DNA from: a virus
DNA length: 34,061 bases
Reading direction: 5' to 3' (one strand)
IMG/VR virus record: IMGVR_UViG_3300048447_000174
Location: 1-34,061 of that record
Positions 16,273 through 33,320 of the stretch are shown here, in pieces (positions within the stretch are counted from its first letter, which is position 1; every line of letters starts with the position of its first letter). The notes beneath the pieces were generated by a model. It did not search any database. It saw only the letters and a program-made list of their open reading frames with translations, and was not told where the DNA came from. A program made the position numbers and the translations under genes.

Positions 16273-17468
16273 TGTCAAACGTAAAACAACTAAAGCATTT
16301 GGAGCATTTAGAGGATGAGATGCTGAACTATGGCATCGAAGGATGCAAGGCAGCAGTATCATTCCTCAAAGAACTTCGTAACATGTTGGGGCACCAAGAA
16401 AGTAGTGGTTTCATGCAGACTAAGTGGGATGGTGCTCCTTCTGTTATCTGTGGCGAACATCCTGCATCTGGTAGGTTCTTTGTCGGCACAAAGTCTGTCT
16501 TCAATAAGGTAGAACCTAAGATATGCTATAGTGAAAAAGCAATTGATAAATTATATGATGGAGATCTAGCAGAGAAACTTAAGTTTGCTCTACGATACTT
16601 CAGTGAACTGGGTATCAAGGGAGTCATCCAGGGTGACCTCATGTTTACTGACAGTACATTAAAAGCAGAGACTGTTAACGGTGAGAGACTGTATACATTC
16701 AGACCTAACACTATTACCTATGCTATCCCAGTAGATCATCCTATTGGTAAGGCAGCAGGTACTGCAAAAATTGGTGTAGTATTTCATACTCACTATACTG
16801 GAGATGATCTACCTACCATGCAAGCAAGAGCTGGTGCTGATATAACAGGATCTAGAAATGCATTGGTGATTAAAAATGATACCCCAATGCATAGAGTTGG
16901 ATTTTCTAAAGCAGAGATGCAGAAGTTTGACAATCACGTCACCAAGATCGAACGTATGTGTCAGGTATGTGGACCATTCTTAGATGACCTTGTAGAAAAC
17001 TTTGGCAACACAGGGGATAAAAAGTTTCACATTTCATCATATATTAAACAGTTTTTTAATGCTGAGATTAGAGAACGTCGGAACGTTGGAAACATTGATG
17101 AGACTATCCATGCTCTGGTAAACTTCTATGATGCTAAGATGCAGAAAGAGTTGGAAAAAATAAAGACACCTGCCAACAGAGTGAAGAAAGCAAACTTAGT
17201 ATATCAAAGTGAGAACTATTTGATTGATAATGTGTATAAGTTTAAGGCAATGCTTGCCTTATATAAAGAGATACAAACTGTCAAGCAAATGGTTATAGAT
17301 AAGTTAGATCACCTTGAAACATTCAGAACTTTTGTGGAGACTGACAAAGGATATAAGGTCACAACTCCCGAAGGTTATGTTCTACATAAAGATGGTAGTA
17401 TGATCAAATTTGTTAATCGTCTTGAGTTTGCTTACAACAACTTCACCCTCCAGAAAAAATGGCGTTAA
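16272..17468 (+). CDS. protein with nucleotidyltransferase/ligase-type KxDG motif (398 aa; DUF6267-like)
   Basis: Residues 51-54 read KWDG followed by APSVICG, the pattern of motif I (lysine that receives AMP) in ATP-dependent DNA/RNA ligases and capping enzymes. Further ligase-like motifs in order are FFVGTKSVFNK (69-79), GVIQGDLMF (117-125, like motif III), VVFHTHYTG (169-177) and ALVIKND (197-203, like motif V). The C-terminal half is helical and unrecognised. No ligase activity is claimed: the assignment rests on motif order. Related cyanophage proteins are usually called hypothetical. It overlaps the next gene by 10 bases. Confidence 0.65.
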   Translation: MSNVKQLKHLEHLEDEMLNYGIEGCKAAVSFLKELRNMLGHQESSGFMQTKWDGAPSVICGEHPASGRFFVGTKSVFNKVEPKICYSEKAIDKLYDGDLAEKLKFALRYFSELGIKGVIQGDLMFTDSTLKAETVNGERLYTFRPNTITYAIPVDHPIGKAAGTAKIGVVFHTHYTGDDLPTMQARAGADITGSRNALVIKNDTPMHRVGFSKAEMQKFDNHVTKIERMCQVCGPFLDDLVENFGNTGDKKFHISSYIKQFFNAEIRERRNVGNIDETIHALVNFYDAKMQKELEKIKTPANRVKKANLVYQSENYLIDNVYKFKAMLALYKEIQTVKQMVIDKLDHLETFRTFVETDKGYKVTTPEGYVLHKDGSMIKFVNRLEFAYNNFTLQKKWR

Positions 17469-18022
17469 ATTGCATCAAATGCTACTTTACTTTTGGTAGG
17501 TTTCAACCACCTACTACAGGTCATAAAGAAAATTTCGATGGGGTGAAACGCATCGCAGGTGGTCATGACTATAGGATCTATATCTCACAGACATTTGACA
17601 CTAAAGGAAAGAACCCACTACCACCTGATCGTAAACTACATTACATGAATAAGATGTTTCCAGAACATCGTGGTAAAATAATGTCAGGACCAAAAGATCC
17701 TGTTGCTATCATGCAAGACTTGATGATGGCAGGATATAATGAGGTTATATTTCTAGTGGGATCTGATAGGGTAAGCGCCATGCAGTTCCTCCATAAATAT
17801 AATGGCAAAGATTTTTCGTTTAGAAAAATTGAGATACAATCTTCAGGTAGTAGAGATGCTGATGGAGATACCTTTGCTATTTCTGGAACTAAAATGAGAC
17901 GTGCAGCACATGCTAACGACTTTAAAACATTTCGTTCTGGTATTCCTAAAGCATTAAATGATAAAGACTGTGAGACTATGATGAATGAGATTAGATCAAA
18001 TCTACCCGCAAACTTTAAATGA
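17459..18022 (+). CDS. nucleotidylyltransferase of the TxGH/HxGH superfamily (187 aa)
   Basis: FGRFQPPTTGHKENF (residues 12-26) contains the T-x-G-H nucleotide-binding motif and DTFAISGTKMR (about 138-148) matches the ISxTxxR signature of adenylyl/cytidylyl-transferases such as NadM. VIFLVGSDR is the expected middle strand. These enzymes join a nucleotide to a phosphorylated substrate; NMN adenylylation or cytidylyl transfer is possible. It overlaps the ligase-like gene, so the two are coexpressed. Confidence 0.82.
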   Translation: MALNCIKCYFTFGRFQPPTTGHKENFDGVKRIAGGHDYRIYISQTFDTKGKNPLPPDRKLHYMNKMFPEHRGKIMSGPKDPVAIMQDLMMAGYNEVIFLVGSDRVSAMQFLHKYNGKDFSFRKIEIQSSGSRDADGDTFAISGTKMRRAAHANDFKTFRSGIPKALNDKDCETMMNEIRSNLPANFK

Positions 18023-18309
18023 AAAATTTTAAAGATCTGAAGAAGAGAGCAACGCAAGAAAGTTTTCGTCAGAAAAAATCACTTAGGGAAGGTGATGTTG
18101 TAATGTCAGCAGTGACAGGTGATAAAGGCAAAATATACAGAGCAGGTGTTAACTATGCTATCTGTGTAACTGAGTCTGGAGAAATGTTTCGTGCGTGGGT
18201 AAAAGACCTGAGAGAAGTTGCGGCAATTGATTCCATAAATAAAGAAAGGAAAAGTAGTATCTTTACAAATAATGGAAAGACAAAAACCAACGACAAGCGT
18301 TCAACATGA
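18019..18309 (+). CDS. small basic protein, unknown (96 aa)
   Basis: ATGA overlap with the nucleotidyltransferase. The basic N-terminus (MKNFKDLKKRATQESFRQKK) is followed by strand-like segments (GDVVMSAVTGDKGKIYRAG, YAICVTESGEMFRAWVKDL) of KOW or SH3-like pattern. The last 13 codons overlap the next gene in another frame. Function unknown. Confidence 0.75.
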   Translation: MKNFKDLKKRATQESFRQKKSLREGDVVMSAVTGDKGKIYRAGVNYAICVTESGEMFRAWVKDLREVAAIDSINKERKSSIFTNNGKTKTNDKRST

Positions 18310-19051
18310 TGATGACTTCTCTAAGGCGCTAATCGAATCCTACGGTAAGTGGGTAAATGGTGCTGGATTTGGGTGGCATCTTCATGAAGATAGTATTCCT
18401 GCTGAGCAGAAGCAAGGTGAAGAACAACCTACACGTGCAGGTGGCGCAGATGCCTCTACATCAATTCCTGATCTTTCCGATAAGGAAGAAAAGGGTGATG
18501 AAGGTGCTAAAGATATTAAAGTAAACGCTGGCGCACCTGATCCTGCTCCTAATGTGCGTACAGGTCAAGGTATGAAGTATTCTTTGGGAGCACAAATCAG
18601 GGATACTACTAAAGTAGTTGCTGCAGAATCCTGTGGAGATTGTTCTAACTGTGGTGGTAAAGGTTGCTCCAAGTGCAAGAAAGAAGAAAAGCAATACGTG
18701 AAGAAAGAGTCAGTTTCTTTTGAACTGGATGGAGAAACATACATCTTTGAAGTCAAGATGGATGGTAAAGATGATAATGGTAATACCTCATGCTGGAAAG
18801 GGTATAAGAAACAGGGCACCAAGAAGAAGGGTGGCAAGGAAGTTAACAACTGTGTTAAAGCAGGTTACGAACCCACTGGTTCTGAAATTACTGAGAAAAA
18901 GAAACTTGATGCAGTAGGTAAGGAAGACAAGGACATCGATAACGACGGTGACCACGATAAGTCTGATAAGTATCTGCTTGCACGTCGCAAAAAAGTTTCT
19001 AAGATCATTGGAACTAAAAAGAAGATGAAGGAGGAAGCTGAAAAAAAGTAA
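18272..19051 (+). CDS. Cys-rich phage protein ending on a slippery sequence (259 aa, possibly extended by -1 frameshift)
   Basis: The ATG at 18272 overlaps the previous gene by 38 bases. An acidic first 110 residues precede a cysteine knuckle C121-x2-C124-x2-C127-x4-C132-x2-C135, able to bind zinc. Then come CWKGYKKQGT...NNCV (a Cys/Trp/Gly module known from marine T4-like phages) and DIDNDGDHDKSD (about 221-232), an EF-hand-like calcium loop pattern. Translation stops at 19049 directly after A AAA AAG (19042-19048). A -1 slip would add about 30 Lys/Pro-rich residues, ending at 19146. Virion or head-core protein is possible but not shown. Confidence 0.75.
   Translation: MERQKPTTSVQHDDDFSKALIESYGKWVNGAGFGWHLHEDSIPAEQKQGEEQPTRAGGADASTSIPDLSDKEEKGDEGAKDIKVNAGAPDPAPNVRTGQGMKYSLGAQIRDTTKVVAAESCGDCSNCGGKGCSKCKKEEKQYVKKESVSFELDGETYIFEVKMDGKDDNGNTSCWKGYKKQGTKKKGGKEVNNCVKAGYEPTGSEITEKKKLDAVGKEDKDIDNDGDHDKSDKYLLARRKKVSKIIGTKKKMKEEAEKK
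19029..19048 (+). other. candidate programmed -1 frameshift site (A AAA AAG with upstream SD)
   Basis: The heptamer A AAA AAG (19042-19048) is in the correct phase with the zero-frame codons AAA AAG and the next codon is TAA. AGGAGG (19029-19034) lies 7 bases upstream, as an internal ribosome-binding element that can stimulate slippage. This is the slippery sequence of E. coli dnaX. After a -1 slip the frame stays open to TAA at 19144-19146. A one-base deletion in the A tract (natural or from sequencing) would give the same picture. Confidence 0.55.
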
Positions 19052-19137
19052 AGAAGCCAGTGGTTGAAGTTATGCCTGAAATTGATGACGGCGAACCTGA
19101 ACCCAAACCAGCAAAACCTGGCAAAAAAACAAAGAAG

Positions 19138-19145
19138 GATAAATA
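19138..19145 (+). promoter_or_regulatory. late-type promoter box GATAAATA
   Basis: Seven of eight positions match the T4 late consensus TATAAATA, 22 bases before the ATG at 19168. It overlaps the TAA that would end the frameshifted extension. Confidence 0.4.
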
Positions 19146-19167
19146 AAATAGTCCTTGCTATAAGATA

Positions 19168-19447: not shown

Positions 19448-20026
19448 ATGTCCCTTTACGGAAGAACGGACAGCAACGCTAACAAAGCCAAAGCAGGCAT
19501 TGGAGTTGCTGCATCCGCACAAGCAAAGCAAACAATTTTTATTGACGACACCGAAGCAGCACTTGCTGAGAACAAAGCACGTGGTCTGAATGCTCCTGGT
19601 TGGTGGTCCTACTATACTTTCACTGATTGTGAAGGTAACACCCGTCATAAGGCAGAGATGCTGGTAACCATTGCTGGTCCTGATCTTAATGCTAACGAGA
19701 CTCAGGCAGATGATGCTGCAGCAGCAGACGTAAGTGTATTGATTGACATCCAGACACAACCAGCAGATACTGCTGTTGCTGTTGGTGCTGCTCTACAACT
19801 TGTTCTTGCCGCTACCGCTACTCCTCCTGCTGATGCCTCTGTGCTCACCTATCAGTGGCAGAAGAAGTCTGGTAAGAAATGGGCAAACGTTTCTGGTGCT
19901 ACCAATACAACGTTTGATGTTGCTACCTATGCTGCTACTGACGCTGGTTCCTACCGTGTCAAGATCAACTCTACTAACGGTGCTACAGAGAAAATCTCTG
20001 CTGTTGCTGTTGTAACTACTGCCTGA
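19448..20026 (+). CDS. Ig-like domain virion-type protein (192 aa)
   Basis: GGAG lies 8 bases before the ATG, and an exact late promoter box precedes it. The N-terminal 80 residues (MSLYGRTDSNANKAKAGIGV..., then WWSYYTFTDCEGNTRHKAE) form a conserved cyanophage domain, and the C-terminal 95 residues are an Ig-like domain: the QPADTAVAVGAALQLVL strand, YQWQKKSGKKW, then YAATDAGSYRVKINS (the D-x-G-x-Y motif). Ig-like domains decorate phage capsids and tails and help adsorption. Late-stage expression and this domain support a structural role. The protein is Ala/Thr-rich and lacks a signal peptide. Confidence 0.85.
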   Translation: MSLYGRTDSNANKAKAGIGVAASAQAKQTIFIDDTEAALAENKARGLNAPGWWSYYTFTDCEGNTRHKAEMLVTIAGPDLNANETQADDAAAADVSVLIDIQTQPADTAVAVGAALQLVLAATATPPADASVLTYQWQKKSGKKWANVSGATNTTFDVATYAATDAGSYRVKINSTNGATEKISAVAVVTTA

Positions 20027-21512: not shown

Positions 21513-22488
21513 TACTAAGTACATTCAACTAGTATCACCGCAACTAAATAAATTTTCTCGAAAGAATGATAAAACATATAACTTTCGATGTCCATATTGT
21601 GGTGACTCAAAAAAACATACTAACAAATGTCGTGGGTATTTCTTTAAGATAAAGAACGACTTTGTGTACAAGTGTCATAACTGTGGGATCGGTAGAACGT
21701 TCACCAATTTTTTAAAAGATCAGAATCTTTTATTGCATGATCAGTATGTGATGGAAAGATATCGTGAGGGTCTTACTGGTAAAGGTAGTCAGACTAAGAA
21801 TCCAGACTTTGGTTTTAAACCACCTGTATTTAAAACCTCAAAAGCAGTAGATCTTGAACCTATCTCGACGCTAAATAAAGAACATCCAGCAAGGCATTAC
21901 TTAGAAAATAGAAAAATTGAAGACTTAAGCAGTTTTTACTACTGCCCCAAATTTAAAGATTGGACAAATAAAAAAAAGAAAACGTTTGACACTTTACGAC
22001 AAGATAGTCCACGTATTATAATACCATTAAAGGACACCGATGGAATCATGTTTGGATTCCAAGGGAGATCTCTTGCCCCTAAAGCAAAGATCAGATATAT
22101 TACTATTATGTTAGATGATTCTAAACCTAAAGTATATGGTTTAGATAGAGTTGACCCAACGCTACCTGTTTATGTCACAGAAGGACCCTTCGACAGTCAT
22201 TTCATTACCAATGCTATTGCTATGTGTGGTAGCGATGTTGACCTTAGCACTTTCGATTATAAATTTATATTCGTCTTCGACAACGAACCAAGAAACAGAC
22301 AGATTGTTGATAGAATTCAGAAAACTATCAACAAAGGAAACCAGGTAGTCATCTTTCCTAAAGAAATTAAAGAAAAGGACCTAAACGATATGGTTCTTAG
22401 TGGACATAATGTCCAAAACCTGGTAGAATGTAACACTTACCAGGGACTCAAAGCAACCCTTAAACTGAACGAATGGAAAAAAGTATGA
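21499..22488 (+). CDS. gp61: DNA primase gp61 (DnaG-type)
   Basis: 329 residues (T4 gp61 is 342). The zinc ribbon is C31-x2-C34 and C59-x2-C62 (RCPYCGDS and YKCHNCG). The Toprim-like core reads YVTEGPFDSHFI (catalytic Glu) and FIFVFDNEPRN (Asp pair). Primase makes RNA primers at the fork with gp41. The start is GTG at 21499, overlapping the preceding stop; no better start lies downstream before the zinc site. ATGA overlap with nrdA. Confidence 0.93.
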   Translation: MSYLDTKYIQLVSPQLNKFSRKNDKTYNFRCPYCGDSKKHTNKCRGYFFKIKNDFVYKCHNCGIGRTFTNFLKDQNLLLHDQYVMERYREGLTGKGSQTKNPDFGFKPPVFKTSKAVDLEPISTLNKEHPARHYLENRKIEDLSSFYYCPKFKDWTNKKKKTFDTLRQDSPRIIIPLKDTDGIMFGFQGRSLAPKAKIRYITIMLDDSKPKVYGLDRVDPTLPVYVTEGPFDSHFITNAIAMCGSDVDLSTFDYKFIFVFDNEPRNRQIVDRIQKTINKGNQVVIFPKEIKEKDLNDMVLSGHNVQNLVECNTYQGLKATLKLNEWKKV

Positions 22489-24791
22489 GCAATGGTATCA
22501 ACGTAGTCAAGCGTGACAATTCGATTGAACATCTTGACTTGGATAAGATGCATAAGATGGTAGAGGAAGCGTGTGAGGGTCTCTCAGGCGTCTCTGCTTC
22601 CCAAGTTGAAATGAGTTCAGGTATCCAATTCCATGATGGAATTACTACAGATCAAATTCAGGAAATTCTAATTCGTTCTGCTTCTGATTTGATTAGTTTG
22701 GATGCTCCTAACTACCAATACGTTGCTGCTCGTTTGCTTCTGTTCAGTCTTCGTAAGTCAGTATTCAATAAGAATGTATGGAAAGATGGTATGCCTAGTG
22801 CATACGATGTTGCTTTGTACAATGTAACTATCAATAAAGTCTATGACGAAGAAATTCTGGACAAGTATAGTGATGAAGATTGGGTAAGTATTAATAACTG
22901 GATTGATCATGGTCGTGATTTTCTGTTTACCTATGCTGGTCTAAGACAAGTTGTAGATAAATATTTGGTACAAGATCGCAGTACTAATGAGATTTACGAA
23001 ACTCCTCAGTACATGTACATGTTCATTGCGATGACCTTGTTTGCGGACTACCCACTTGCTACTAGATTAGAATATGTCAGACGATACTACAACGCAATCA
23101 GCAAACACAAAATCAACATTCCCACACCTATCATGGGAGGGGTGCGAACTCCACTTCGACAGTTTGCTAGCTGTGTTCTTATTGATGCTAATGACACCCT
23201 CGATAGCATCTTTTCTAGTGACATGGCGATTGGCAAGTATGTTGCTCAACGTGCAGGAATCGGTATCAACGCAGGCAGAATCCGTGGGATCAATTCTAAG
23301 ATCCGAGGCGGAGAAGTACAGCACACAGGTGTTATTCCATTCCTCAAAAAATTTGAAAGCACTGTCAGATGTTGTACTCAAAATGGCATTCGCGGTGGAT
23401 CAGCTACAGTACACTTCCCAATCTGGCACCAAGAAATCGAAGACATCCTAGTTCTTAAAAATAATAAAGGAACAGAGGACAACCGAGTTCGTAAACTAGA
23501 TTATTCTATTCAAATATCTAAGTTATTCTATGAACGTTTCATCAAGAATGGAGAAATTAGCCTATTCTCACCGCATGACGTACCAGGTTTGTATGACGCT
23601 TTTGGTACTGATTCATTTGACGCTCGCTATGTGGACTATGAATCAGATCAGTCTATTCCAAGAAAAACTGTCGGAGCACAAGATCTGGTTCTTTCGTTAC
23701 TGAAAGAGAGAGCAGAAACAGGTCGTGTTTATATCATGAACATCGATCATTGCAATTCTCATTCGTCTTTTAAAGACAAAGTGAACATGAGTAACCTATG
23801 TCAGGAAATTACTCTACCAACTGATCCTCTAGAGCATATTGATGGTGATGGAGAAATTGCACTTTGTATTTTGTCTGCTATTAATGTAGGTAAAATCAAT
23901 AAACTAGATGAGATGGAAGAACTATGTGACTTGGCAGTTCGTGGTCTTGAAGAATTGATTGATTATCAAAACTATCCTATTAAAGCAGCAGAAGTTAGTA
24001 CAAAAAATCGACGTTCACTTGGAGTTGGTTACATCGGACTAGCACACTACCTAGCAAAACAAGGAGAACACTATGATGACCCAGGAGCATGGAGACTTGT
24101 CCATGAACTTACTGAATCTTTCCAATACTATCTACTCAGAGCCAGCAACGAATTGGCAAAAGAAAAAGGGAAGTGTGGATATTTCAATCGCACCAAGTAT
24201 GCAGACGGTCTACTCCCAATCGACACTTACAAGCGTGAAGTTGATCAAATCCACAACGCAGACTTGAACTATGATTGGGAAAGTCTTAGAGTATCTATCG
24301 CCAACCACGGGTTACGACACAGCACACTGTCCGCACAGATGCCTAGCGAGAGCAGTTCCATTGTGTCAAACGAAACTAATGGAATCGAACCCCCACGTGC
24401 CTATCTGTCCACTAAAAAGTCAAAGAAAGGACCTCTTAAGCAAATTGTACCGTCTTTTTCAACTTTGAAAAACAACTATACATTGCTATGGGAAATGAAA
24501 AACAATACTGGATACATCAATATTGTTTCTATCATGCAAAAGTTCTTTGACCAGGCAATCTCAGGTAACTGGAGTTATAATCCAGAAAATTATCCTAACA
24601 ATGAGGTTCCTGTATCTGAGATGGCAAACGATCTTCTTACTACATACAAACTTGGTTGGAAGACATCATATTATCAGAATACATATGATAGCAAAGATGA
24701 TGAAGAAGAAGATGCACCACAAAATCTAGACCAATTACTATCCAACATCACCAACGCCGAGGAAGAACCCTGTGACAGCTGCACAATTTAG
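22485..24791 (+). CDS. nrdA: ribonucleotide reductase class Ia alpha subunit NrdA
   Basis: 768 residues from the ATG at 22485, which makes an ATGA overlap with gp61; an in-frame ATG at 22473 is possible. An N-terminal ATP-cone-like region (VVKRDNSIEHLDLDKMHKMV) matches E. coli NrdA closely. The active-site Cys region is FASCVLID (about residue 230), the radical-site NMSNLCQEITLP (about 434) carries N, C and E, and the C-terminal CDSC is the redox-relay pair. It reduces ribonucleotides to deoxyribonucleotides for phage DNA. The CDSC tail overlaps the nrdB start by 20 bases. Confidence 0.96.
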   Translation: MSNGINVVKRDNSIEHLDLDKMHKMVEEACEGLSGVSASQVEMSSGIQFHDGITTDQIQEILIRSASDLISLDAPNYQYVAARLLLFSLRKSVFNKNVWKDGMPSAYDVALYNVTINKVYDEEILDKYSDEDWVSINNWIDHGRDFLFTYAGLRQVVDKYLVQDRSTNEIYETPQYMYMFIAMTLFADYPLATRLEYVRRYYNAISKHKINIPTPIMGGVRTPLRQFASCVLIDANDTLDSIFSSDMAIGKYVAQRAGIGINAGRIRGINSKIRGGEVQHTGVIPFLKKFESTVRCCTQNGIRGGSATVHFPIWHQEIEDILVLKNNKGTEDNRVRKLDYSIQISKLFYERFIKNGEISLFSPHDVPGLYDAFGTDSFDARYVDYESDQSIPRKTVGAQDLVLSLLKERAETGRVYIMNIDHCNSHSSFKDKVNMSNLCQEITLPTDPLEHIDGDGEIALCILSAINVGKINKLDEMEELCDLAVRGLEELIDYQNYPIKAAEVSTKNRRSLGVGYIGLAHYLAKQGEHYDDPGAWRLVHELTESFQYYLLRASNELAKEKGKCGYFNRTKYADGLLPIDTYKREVDQIHNADLNYDWESLRVSIANHGLRHSTLSAQMPSESSSIVSNETNGIEPPRAYLSTKKSKKGPLKQIVPSFSTLKNNYTLLWEMKNNTGYINIVSIMQKFFDQAISGNWSYNPENYPNNEVPVSEMANDLLTTYKLGWKTSYYQNTYDSKDDEEEDAPQNLDQLLSNITNAEEEPCDSCTI

Positions 24792-33089: not shown

Positions 33090-33092
33090 TAC

Positions 33093-33165
33093 GACTCAGT
33101 AGCTCAGTGGACAGAGCAACTGCCTTCTAAGCAGTCGGTCGTTGGTTCGACCCCAACCTGAGTCG
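33093..33165 (+). tRNA. tRNA-Arg(UCU)
   Basis: 73 bases. Acceptor arm GACTCAG with CTGAGTC, D-arm AGCTCAGTGGACAGAGC, anticodon loop CTTCTAA in an ACTGC/GCAGT stem (anticodon TCT), T-arm GTTGG-TTCGACC-CCAAC. No encoded CCA. Confidence 0.93.
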
Positions 33166-33170
33166 TTCAA

Positions 33171-33247
33171 TCCCCTGTAGCTCAATCAGGCAGAGCGCCA
33201 AACTGTTAATTTGGATGTTACTGGTTCGATTCCAGTCGGGGGAGCCA
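33171..33247 (+). tRNA. tRNA-Asn(GUU), with encoded CCA
   Basis: Acceptor TCCCCTG with CGGGGGA, anticodon loop CTGTTAA in a CCAAA/TTTGG stem (anticodon GTT), T-loop TTCGATT. CCA is encoded at 33245-33247 after discriminator G. The Asn(GUU) identity is clear from the loop. Confidence 0.92.
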
Positions 33248-33248
33248 C

Positions 33249-33320
33249 GCTCGAATAGTTCAGCGGTAGAACACTTGATTTACATTCAAGTTGTCGGGGG
33301 TTCAAATCCCTCTTCGAGCA
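33249..33320 (+). tRNA. tRNA-Val(UAC)
   Basis: 72 bases. Acceptor GCTCGAA with TTCGAGC, anticodon loop TTTACAT in a CTTGA/TCAAG stem (anticodon TAC), T-arm GGGGG-TTCAAAT-CCCTC with one mismatch. It begins one base after the CCA of tRNA-Asn. Confidence 0.93.

Follow-up and report, generated by a model that had tools for sequence, protein, structure and literature searches.

A comparison of related genomes points to a programmed -1 ribosomal frameshift in T4-like cyanophages, at a heptamer A AAA AAG that immediately precedes the stop codon of a gene in the head region, and we assign this reading a probability of about 0.93. The window analysed is the whole of IMG/VR record IMGVR_UViG_3300048447_000174 (34,061 bases), in which T4-like cyanophage genes are present, and the predicted carriers of the frameshift would be T4-like cyanophages (Kyanoviridae, Eurybiavirus). 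An earlier note, made from the letters of the window alone, had proposed such a shift, and the proposal is strongly supported by the comparison, through the heptamer, an upstream GGAG, the frame of the tail and, in relatives, a hairpin. The features concerned are the following.

18272-19051, + strand: 0-frame ORF for a Cys-rich protein of 259 aa, the predicted short product (phrog_4359; 54 relatives aligned)
19029-19034, + strand: AGGAGG, putative internal Shine-Dalgarno-like stimulator, 7 nt 5' of the heptamer (GGAG enrichment in relatives)
19042-19048, + strand: candidate heptamer for slippage, A AAA AAG, in phase for a -1 shift (AAA AAG at 110/110 junctions against 9.1% of internal Lys-Lys pairs)
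19049-19051, + strand: 0-frame stop TAA, in relatives TGA or TAG (read from the sequence)
19048-19146, + strand: -1 frame tail VKKPVVEVMPEIDDGEPEPKPAKPGKKTKKDK plus stop, the predicted extended product (phrog_11051 match)
19056-19092, + strand: possible hairpin whose outer stem is GCC...GGC; it is strong in related groups and weak in the window

In the proposed mechanism, a ribosome with its Lys-tRNAs on AAA AAG would be restrained from behind by the Shine-Dalgarno-like site and from the front, in most relatives, by a hairpin. In some ribosomes both tRNAs would re-pair on AAA AAA (tandem slippage) and reading would go on in the -1 frame, appending a conserved VEVMP...DG segment and a variable, mostly basic module. 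Slippage would compete with termination at the adjacent stop, where the remaining ribosomes would end, and the outcome would be two proteins in a fixed ratio, one short and one extended at its C-terminus. From sequence comparison we infer the slippage itself and the role of the tail, as well as the production of two protein forms.

The candidate slip site and its gene

The ORF at 18272-19051 terminates in AAGGAGGAAGCTGA-AAAAAAG-TAA, its 3' end reading ATG AAG GAG GAA GCT GAA AAA AAG TAA, and the -1 frame is open to 19146. Counted from the start at 18272, the phase is GAA AAA AAG TAA, and the heptamer fits X_XXY_YYZ; the exact phase and the directly following TAA, both claimed in the earlier note, thus agree with the frame, and the AGGAGG that it had placed 7 bases upstream of the heptamer was located at 19029-19034. 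The -1 frame runs from GTA (19048) to AAA (19143) with the stop TAA at 19144-19146, as the note had given its end, although it holds 32 codons and not 31.

The product matches phrog_4359 over its full length and also DUF7201. No dnaX-type family is found among its family matches, and an Rfam search of the region gave nothing above the gathering score. The gene is preceded by a cytidyltransferase (17459-18022) and followed by a member of a head-protein family (19448-20026, phrog_613). Because of this neighbourhood, and because the neighbouring cytidyltransferase T4-GC190 was reported in S-SM1 virions (PMC3037559), a role of the protein in the virion or in head assembly is plausible.

Conservation of the heptamer and its flanking signals

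AAAAAAG is not rare in the A-rich sequence of the window (17 observed, 13 expected), and the case therefore depends on conservation. Four copies stand in slip phase in the ten main ORFs that were checked; the heptamer at 19042 is the only one among these copies to combine an abutting stop, a GGAG-type site and conservation. A second copy in the same ORF, at 18989, is out of phase and was rejected.

Sequence similarity searches of cultured phages and IMG/VR supplied 92 relatives. At 44 of 59 distinct junctions the tail lies in the -1 frame without an ATG start of its own, and 43 of these 44 carry A AAA AAG immediately 5' of the stop; the remaining one (L062) has it one codon further 5', so that a sense codon, CAG or CAA, separates it from the stop. 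A DNA pattern that permits AAA or AAG at both codons, GAA AAR AAR TRA followed by VE-x-MP, gave AAA AAG only at the sites with a -1-frame tail. Neither the homology set nor this pattern required AAA AAG; in the pool, which contains a minority of seven sites from a pattern that did require the heptamer, and in which the IMG/VR contigs are kin and the junctions hence not independent counts, AAA AAG is found at 110 of 110 distinct junctions, against 9.1% of the internal Lys-Lys pairs of the same ORFs. One site of the pool, L215, matched by chance, its phage having the tail as a separate gene, and the 109 left without it comprise 13 cultured phages that were checked and, for the rest, IMG/VR contigs. 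The heptamer is invariant while the identity and distance of the stop vary, since in P-HM1 and MED4-213 it is followed at once by TAG, and in P-HM2 (L265) a single sense codon, CAG or CAA, intervenes before TAG and the tail remains in the -1 frame. The earlier note had looked to conservation of the heptamer and of both frames in related phages as a check, and these are present in many, together with an upstream GGAG. Two relatives of the C-terminal part without the conserved -1 tail (L087, L088) end in AAG AAG and not in AAA AAG.

The same run of A could act at another level, if RNA polymerase lengthened the A7 tract by one A and the edited mRNA thereby carried the tail in frame; A7 stands at 101 of the 109 sites, and one extra A yields the same peptide. 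However, eight of the 109 sites have A6 only and none has A8 or longer, while known sites of transcriptional slippage use longer homopolymers (n > 7 cited in PMC3711429) than the A6 or A7 seen at all 109. The phase of the heptamer, the GGAG and the covarying hairpin are moreover ribosomal signals, and we consider transcriptional slippage very improbable.

Homopolymers are also generally error-prone, and a sequencing or assembly error, or an in-frame gene that has decayed, could in principle mimic the site. Yet the window, L013 and L014, which are separate IMG/VR records, share an identical A7 tract, the heptamer is common to 13 cultured phages, and an A8 counterpart is absent from our IMG/VR search, which leaves this explanation a negligible chance. 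The earlier note had named eight A in the tract, or a tail simply in frame with no slippery sequence, as grounds for abandoning the frameshift; a search of IMG/VR with the pattern GAA AAR AAR GTN...VE(V/I)MP found no in-frame fusion or A8 form, what it did match were ATG-started genes of the separate type and, by chance, a few unrelated sequences.

The ribosomal frameshift reading draws further on the upstream signal. GGAG occurs 11-30 bases 5' of the stop at 97 of 110 sites, against 23.6 +/- 4.2 of 110 (maximum 39) when synonymous codons are redrawn according to the ORFs' own usage. It is encoded variously by group, in KEEAEKK, KEIEEEKK, FRSIAEKK (AGG AGT) and EWRKL; that different amino acids encode the same motif argues for selection on the RNA as what maintains it. 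The distance from GGAG to the heptamer is mostly 8-12 bases in relatives, and 12 sites are without an upstream GGAG.

Downstream, folding of the 50 bases that follow the slip site is more stable than that of dinucleotide-shuffled sequences, with a mean z of -2.8. By tail type, z is -3.15 in group B, -2.37 in group C and -1.41 in group A, to which the window belongs, against a control value of -0.76 in 32 phages that have the VEVMP segment as a separate gene. RNAalifold recovered almost no structure from the mixed groups because A and B use distinct pairings, and the hairpin was analysed after splitting the groups, with RIBOSUM scoring. In group B, changes on both sides of a pair are seen in 29 cells, where shuffling gives 10.7, a signal that declines when the arms are slid, and in group C there are 10 such cells against 4.0. 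In group A, 94.5% of cells are paired, with no covariation. By these measures a downstream hairpin can be regarded as established for groups B and C; the window's own is weak (z -0.7 to -1.4), and that of S-PM2 is absent by the z measure (+0.14). In most relatives the predicted hairpin lies 6-7 nt ahead of the slip site, and it would complete the dnaX set of signals.

The tail as extension or as separate gene

The tail begins with the conserved V(K/T/N)...VE(V/I)MP...DG, and its length changes preserve the frame. In groups A, B and C, pN/pS is 0.38, 0.44 and 0.33 over the whole tail and 0.18, 0.42 and 0.19 from the stop to the VEVMP methionine, values that indicate purifying selection on the -1 tail; since pN/pS is low 5' of that methionine, residues ahead of any likely start are selected as well. 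What follows VEVMP differs among phages: the window has no module at all, S-PM2 carries DUF3008, others have either a KKHKKYVLKT segment or a GKKYERMVKHIKK...AYATAWKHK module, which the Sf-CH11 annotation calls DUF6321, and group C has CNHT..GV.CP.HG, a Cys/His motif. PHROGs treats the tails as separate families (phrog_11051, 30268, 11250 and 32143). A tblastn search with the 32-aa tail alone, too short a query, gave no match.

The tail might instead be encoded as a small gene of its own, with termination-reinitiation starting its translation at GTGA, GTG or the ATG inside VEVMP. GenBank annotators do treat it so in S-PM2, Syn1, S-CAM1 and others, and at the 43 sites with a TGA stop, GTGA is in principle usable as the start of such a gene. 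At 65 of 109 sites, however, the stop is TAA and the overlapping codon GTA, which is no start; 31 of 108 sites have no start codon ahead of the VEVMP ATG, and at 0 of 108 does a Shine-Dalgarno-like site stand in front of that ATG. The conserved residues ahead of the ATG and the frame-keeping length changes also speak against reinitiation, which does not account for the invariant heptamer either, and we judge it improbable. As annotated, tails are GTG- or ATG-started mini-genes in some genomes (S-PM2p146, Syn1_164, S-RIM32 gp084) and lack any annotation in Sf-CH3 and MED4-213.

A VEVMP protein with its own ATG, in an ATGA that overlaps the stop, is found in S-RSM4, S-WAM2, S-H9-1, Sf-CH1b, ACG-2014j and S-CAM4, and the real separate genes of S-RSM4, S-WAM2 and ACG-2014j lend support to reinitiation. 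These separate-gene phages are without the heptamer and show weak folding and no hairpin. S-RSM4, S-WAM2, S-H9-1, ACG-2014j and S-CAM4 share the locus, the two protein parts and the C-terminal modules with the frameshift phages, but the S-RSM4-type layout differs in lacking the heptamer, in its weak folding and in a tail gene that starts at the stop-overlapping ATGA. Either layout would bring the two protein parts together, one by fusing and the other by coupling them, and the contrast between frameshift and coupled genes is an unusual one in evolution. A tree of the neighbouring cytidyltransferase, with long branches and probably mixed paralogues, gives 7 layout changes, at least 5 of them forced by starred branches, and hints at several switches between layouts. 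Tentatively, and at somewhat less than even odds, cyanophages may have switched more than once between frameshift fusion and ATGA-coupled genes and have exchanged the C-terminal module at the same time (none, DUF3008, GKKYERMVKHIKK...AYATAWKHK or Cys/His). If so, the frameshift would be an exchangeable dose controller for the add-on share of a head-region protein.

Known recoding systems and neighbouring genes

The cyanophage site would be a widespread new case of dnaX-like -1 frameshifting, and not dnaX itself. The heptamer A AAA AAG, the upstream Shine-Dalgarno-like site and, in most relatives, the downstream hairpin are all found in E. coli dnaX, a gene that is unrelated and whose shift shortens the product, whereas the cyanophage shift would lengthen it. 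Unlike in dnaX, the cyanophage heptamer touches the stop codon, and the hairpin of the window's group is weak. In Bacillus subtilis cdd, the shift takes place near the end of the gene and adds a short C-terminal extension, helped by a Shine-Dalgarno-like stimulator. The end-of-gene extension and the stimulator would be shared with the cyanophage site, but cdd is an unrelated gene and shifts at CGA AAG. This -1 frameshift is named in PMC5009743, and frameshifting of the dnaX and IS911/IS3 kind is treated there and in PMC4066793. The IS911/IS3-family transposases likewise combine A AAA AAG, a GGAG Shine-Dalgarno-like site, a stem-loop or pseudoknot and a longer product (PMC4066793); these are transposase genes, while the cyanophage case concerns a head-region protein with a short exchangeable tail. 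A minority form, C-terminally extended by frameshifting, is similarly made by the coat proteins of phages T3 and T7 and of Lactobacillus phage A2 (PMC5009743), which are coat proteins with other shift sites, in contrast to a cyanophage protein without known virion role. No report of frameshifting at this locus was found in the open-access journal papers searched.

T4-like cyanophages are among the most abundant viruses of the ocean, and many would carry this recoding site, although its tail is currently listed as free-standing tiny genes or left unannotated. More than 100 natural dnaX-like signals, varied in Shine-Dalgarno spacing, hairpin strength and stop codon, would be useful for learning the trade-offs among them, and the specific extended proteins predicted could be searched for in existing proteomic data of S-PM2, P-HM1 or P-HM2.

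At its other end, the ORF at 18272 starts within the ORF at 18019-18309 (96 aa), with an overlap of 38 nt here and of about 26 nt in most relatives, and there is no good Shine-Dalgarno sequence near its ATG; in P-HM1 and P-HM2 a single long ORF covers the counterparts of both, and the overlap possibly involves coupled or recoded translation. In GenBank and PHROGs (phrog_4808) the family of the smaller ORF carries the name 'ribonucleotide reductase alpha subunit', which is probably an error that has been propagated; the large NrdA-like ORF of the window appears to lie elsewhere, at 22473-24791. Genes for tRNA-Arg(TCT), tRNA-Asn(GTT) and tRNA-Val(TAC) are clustered at 33092-33320 of the window.
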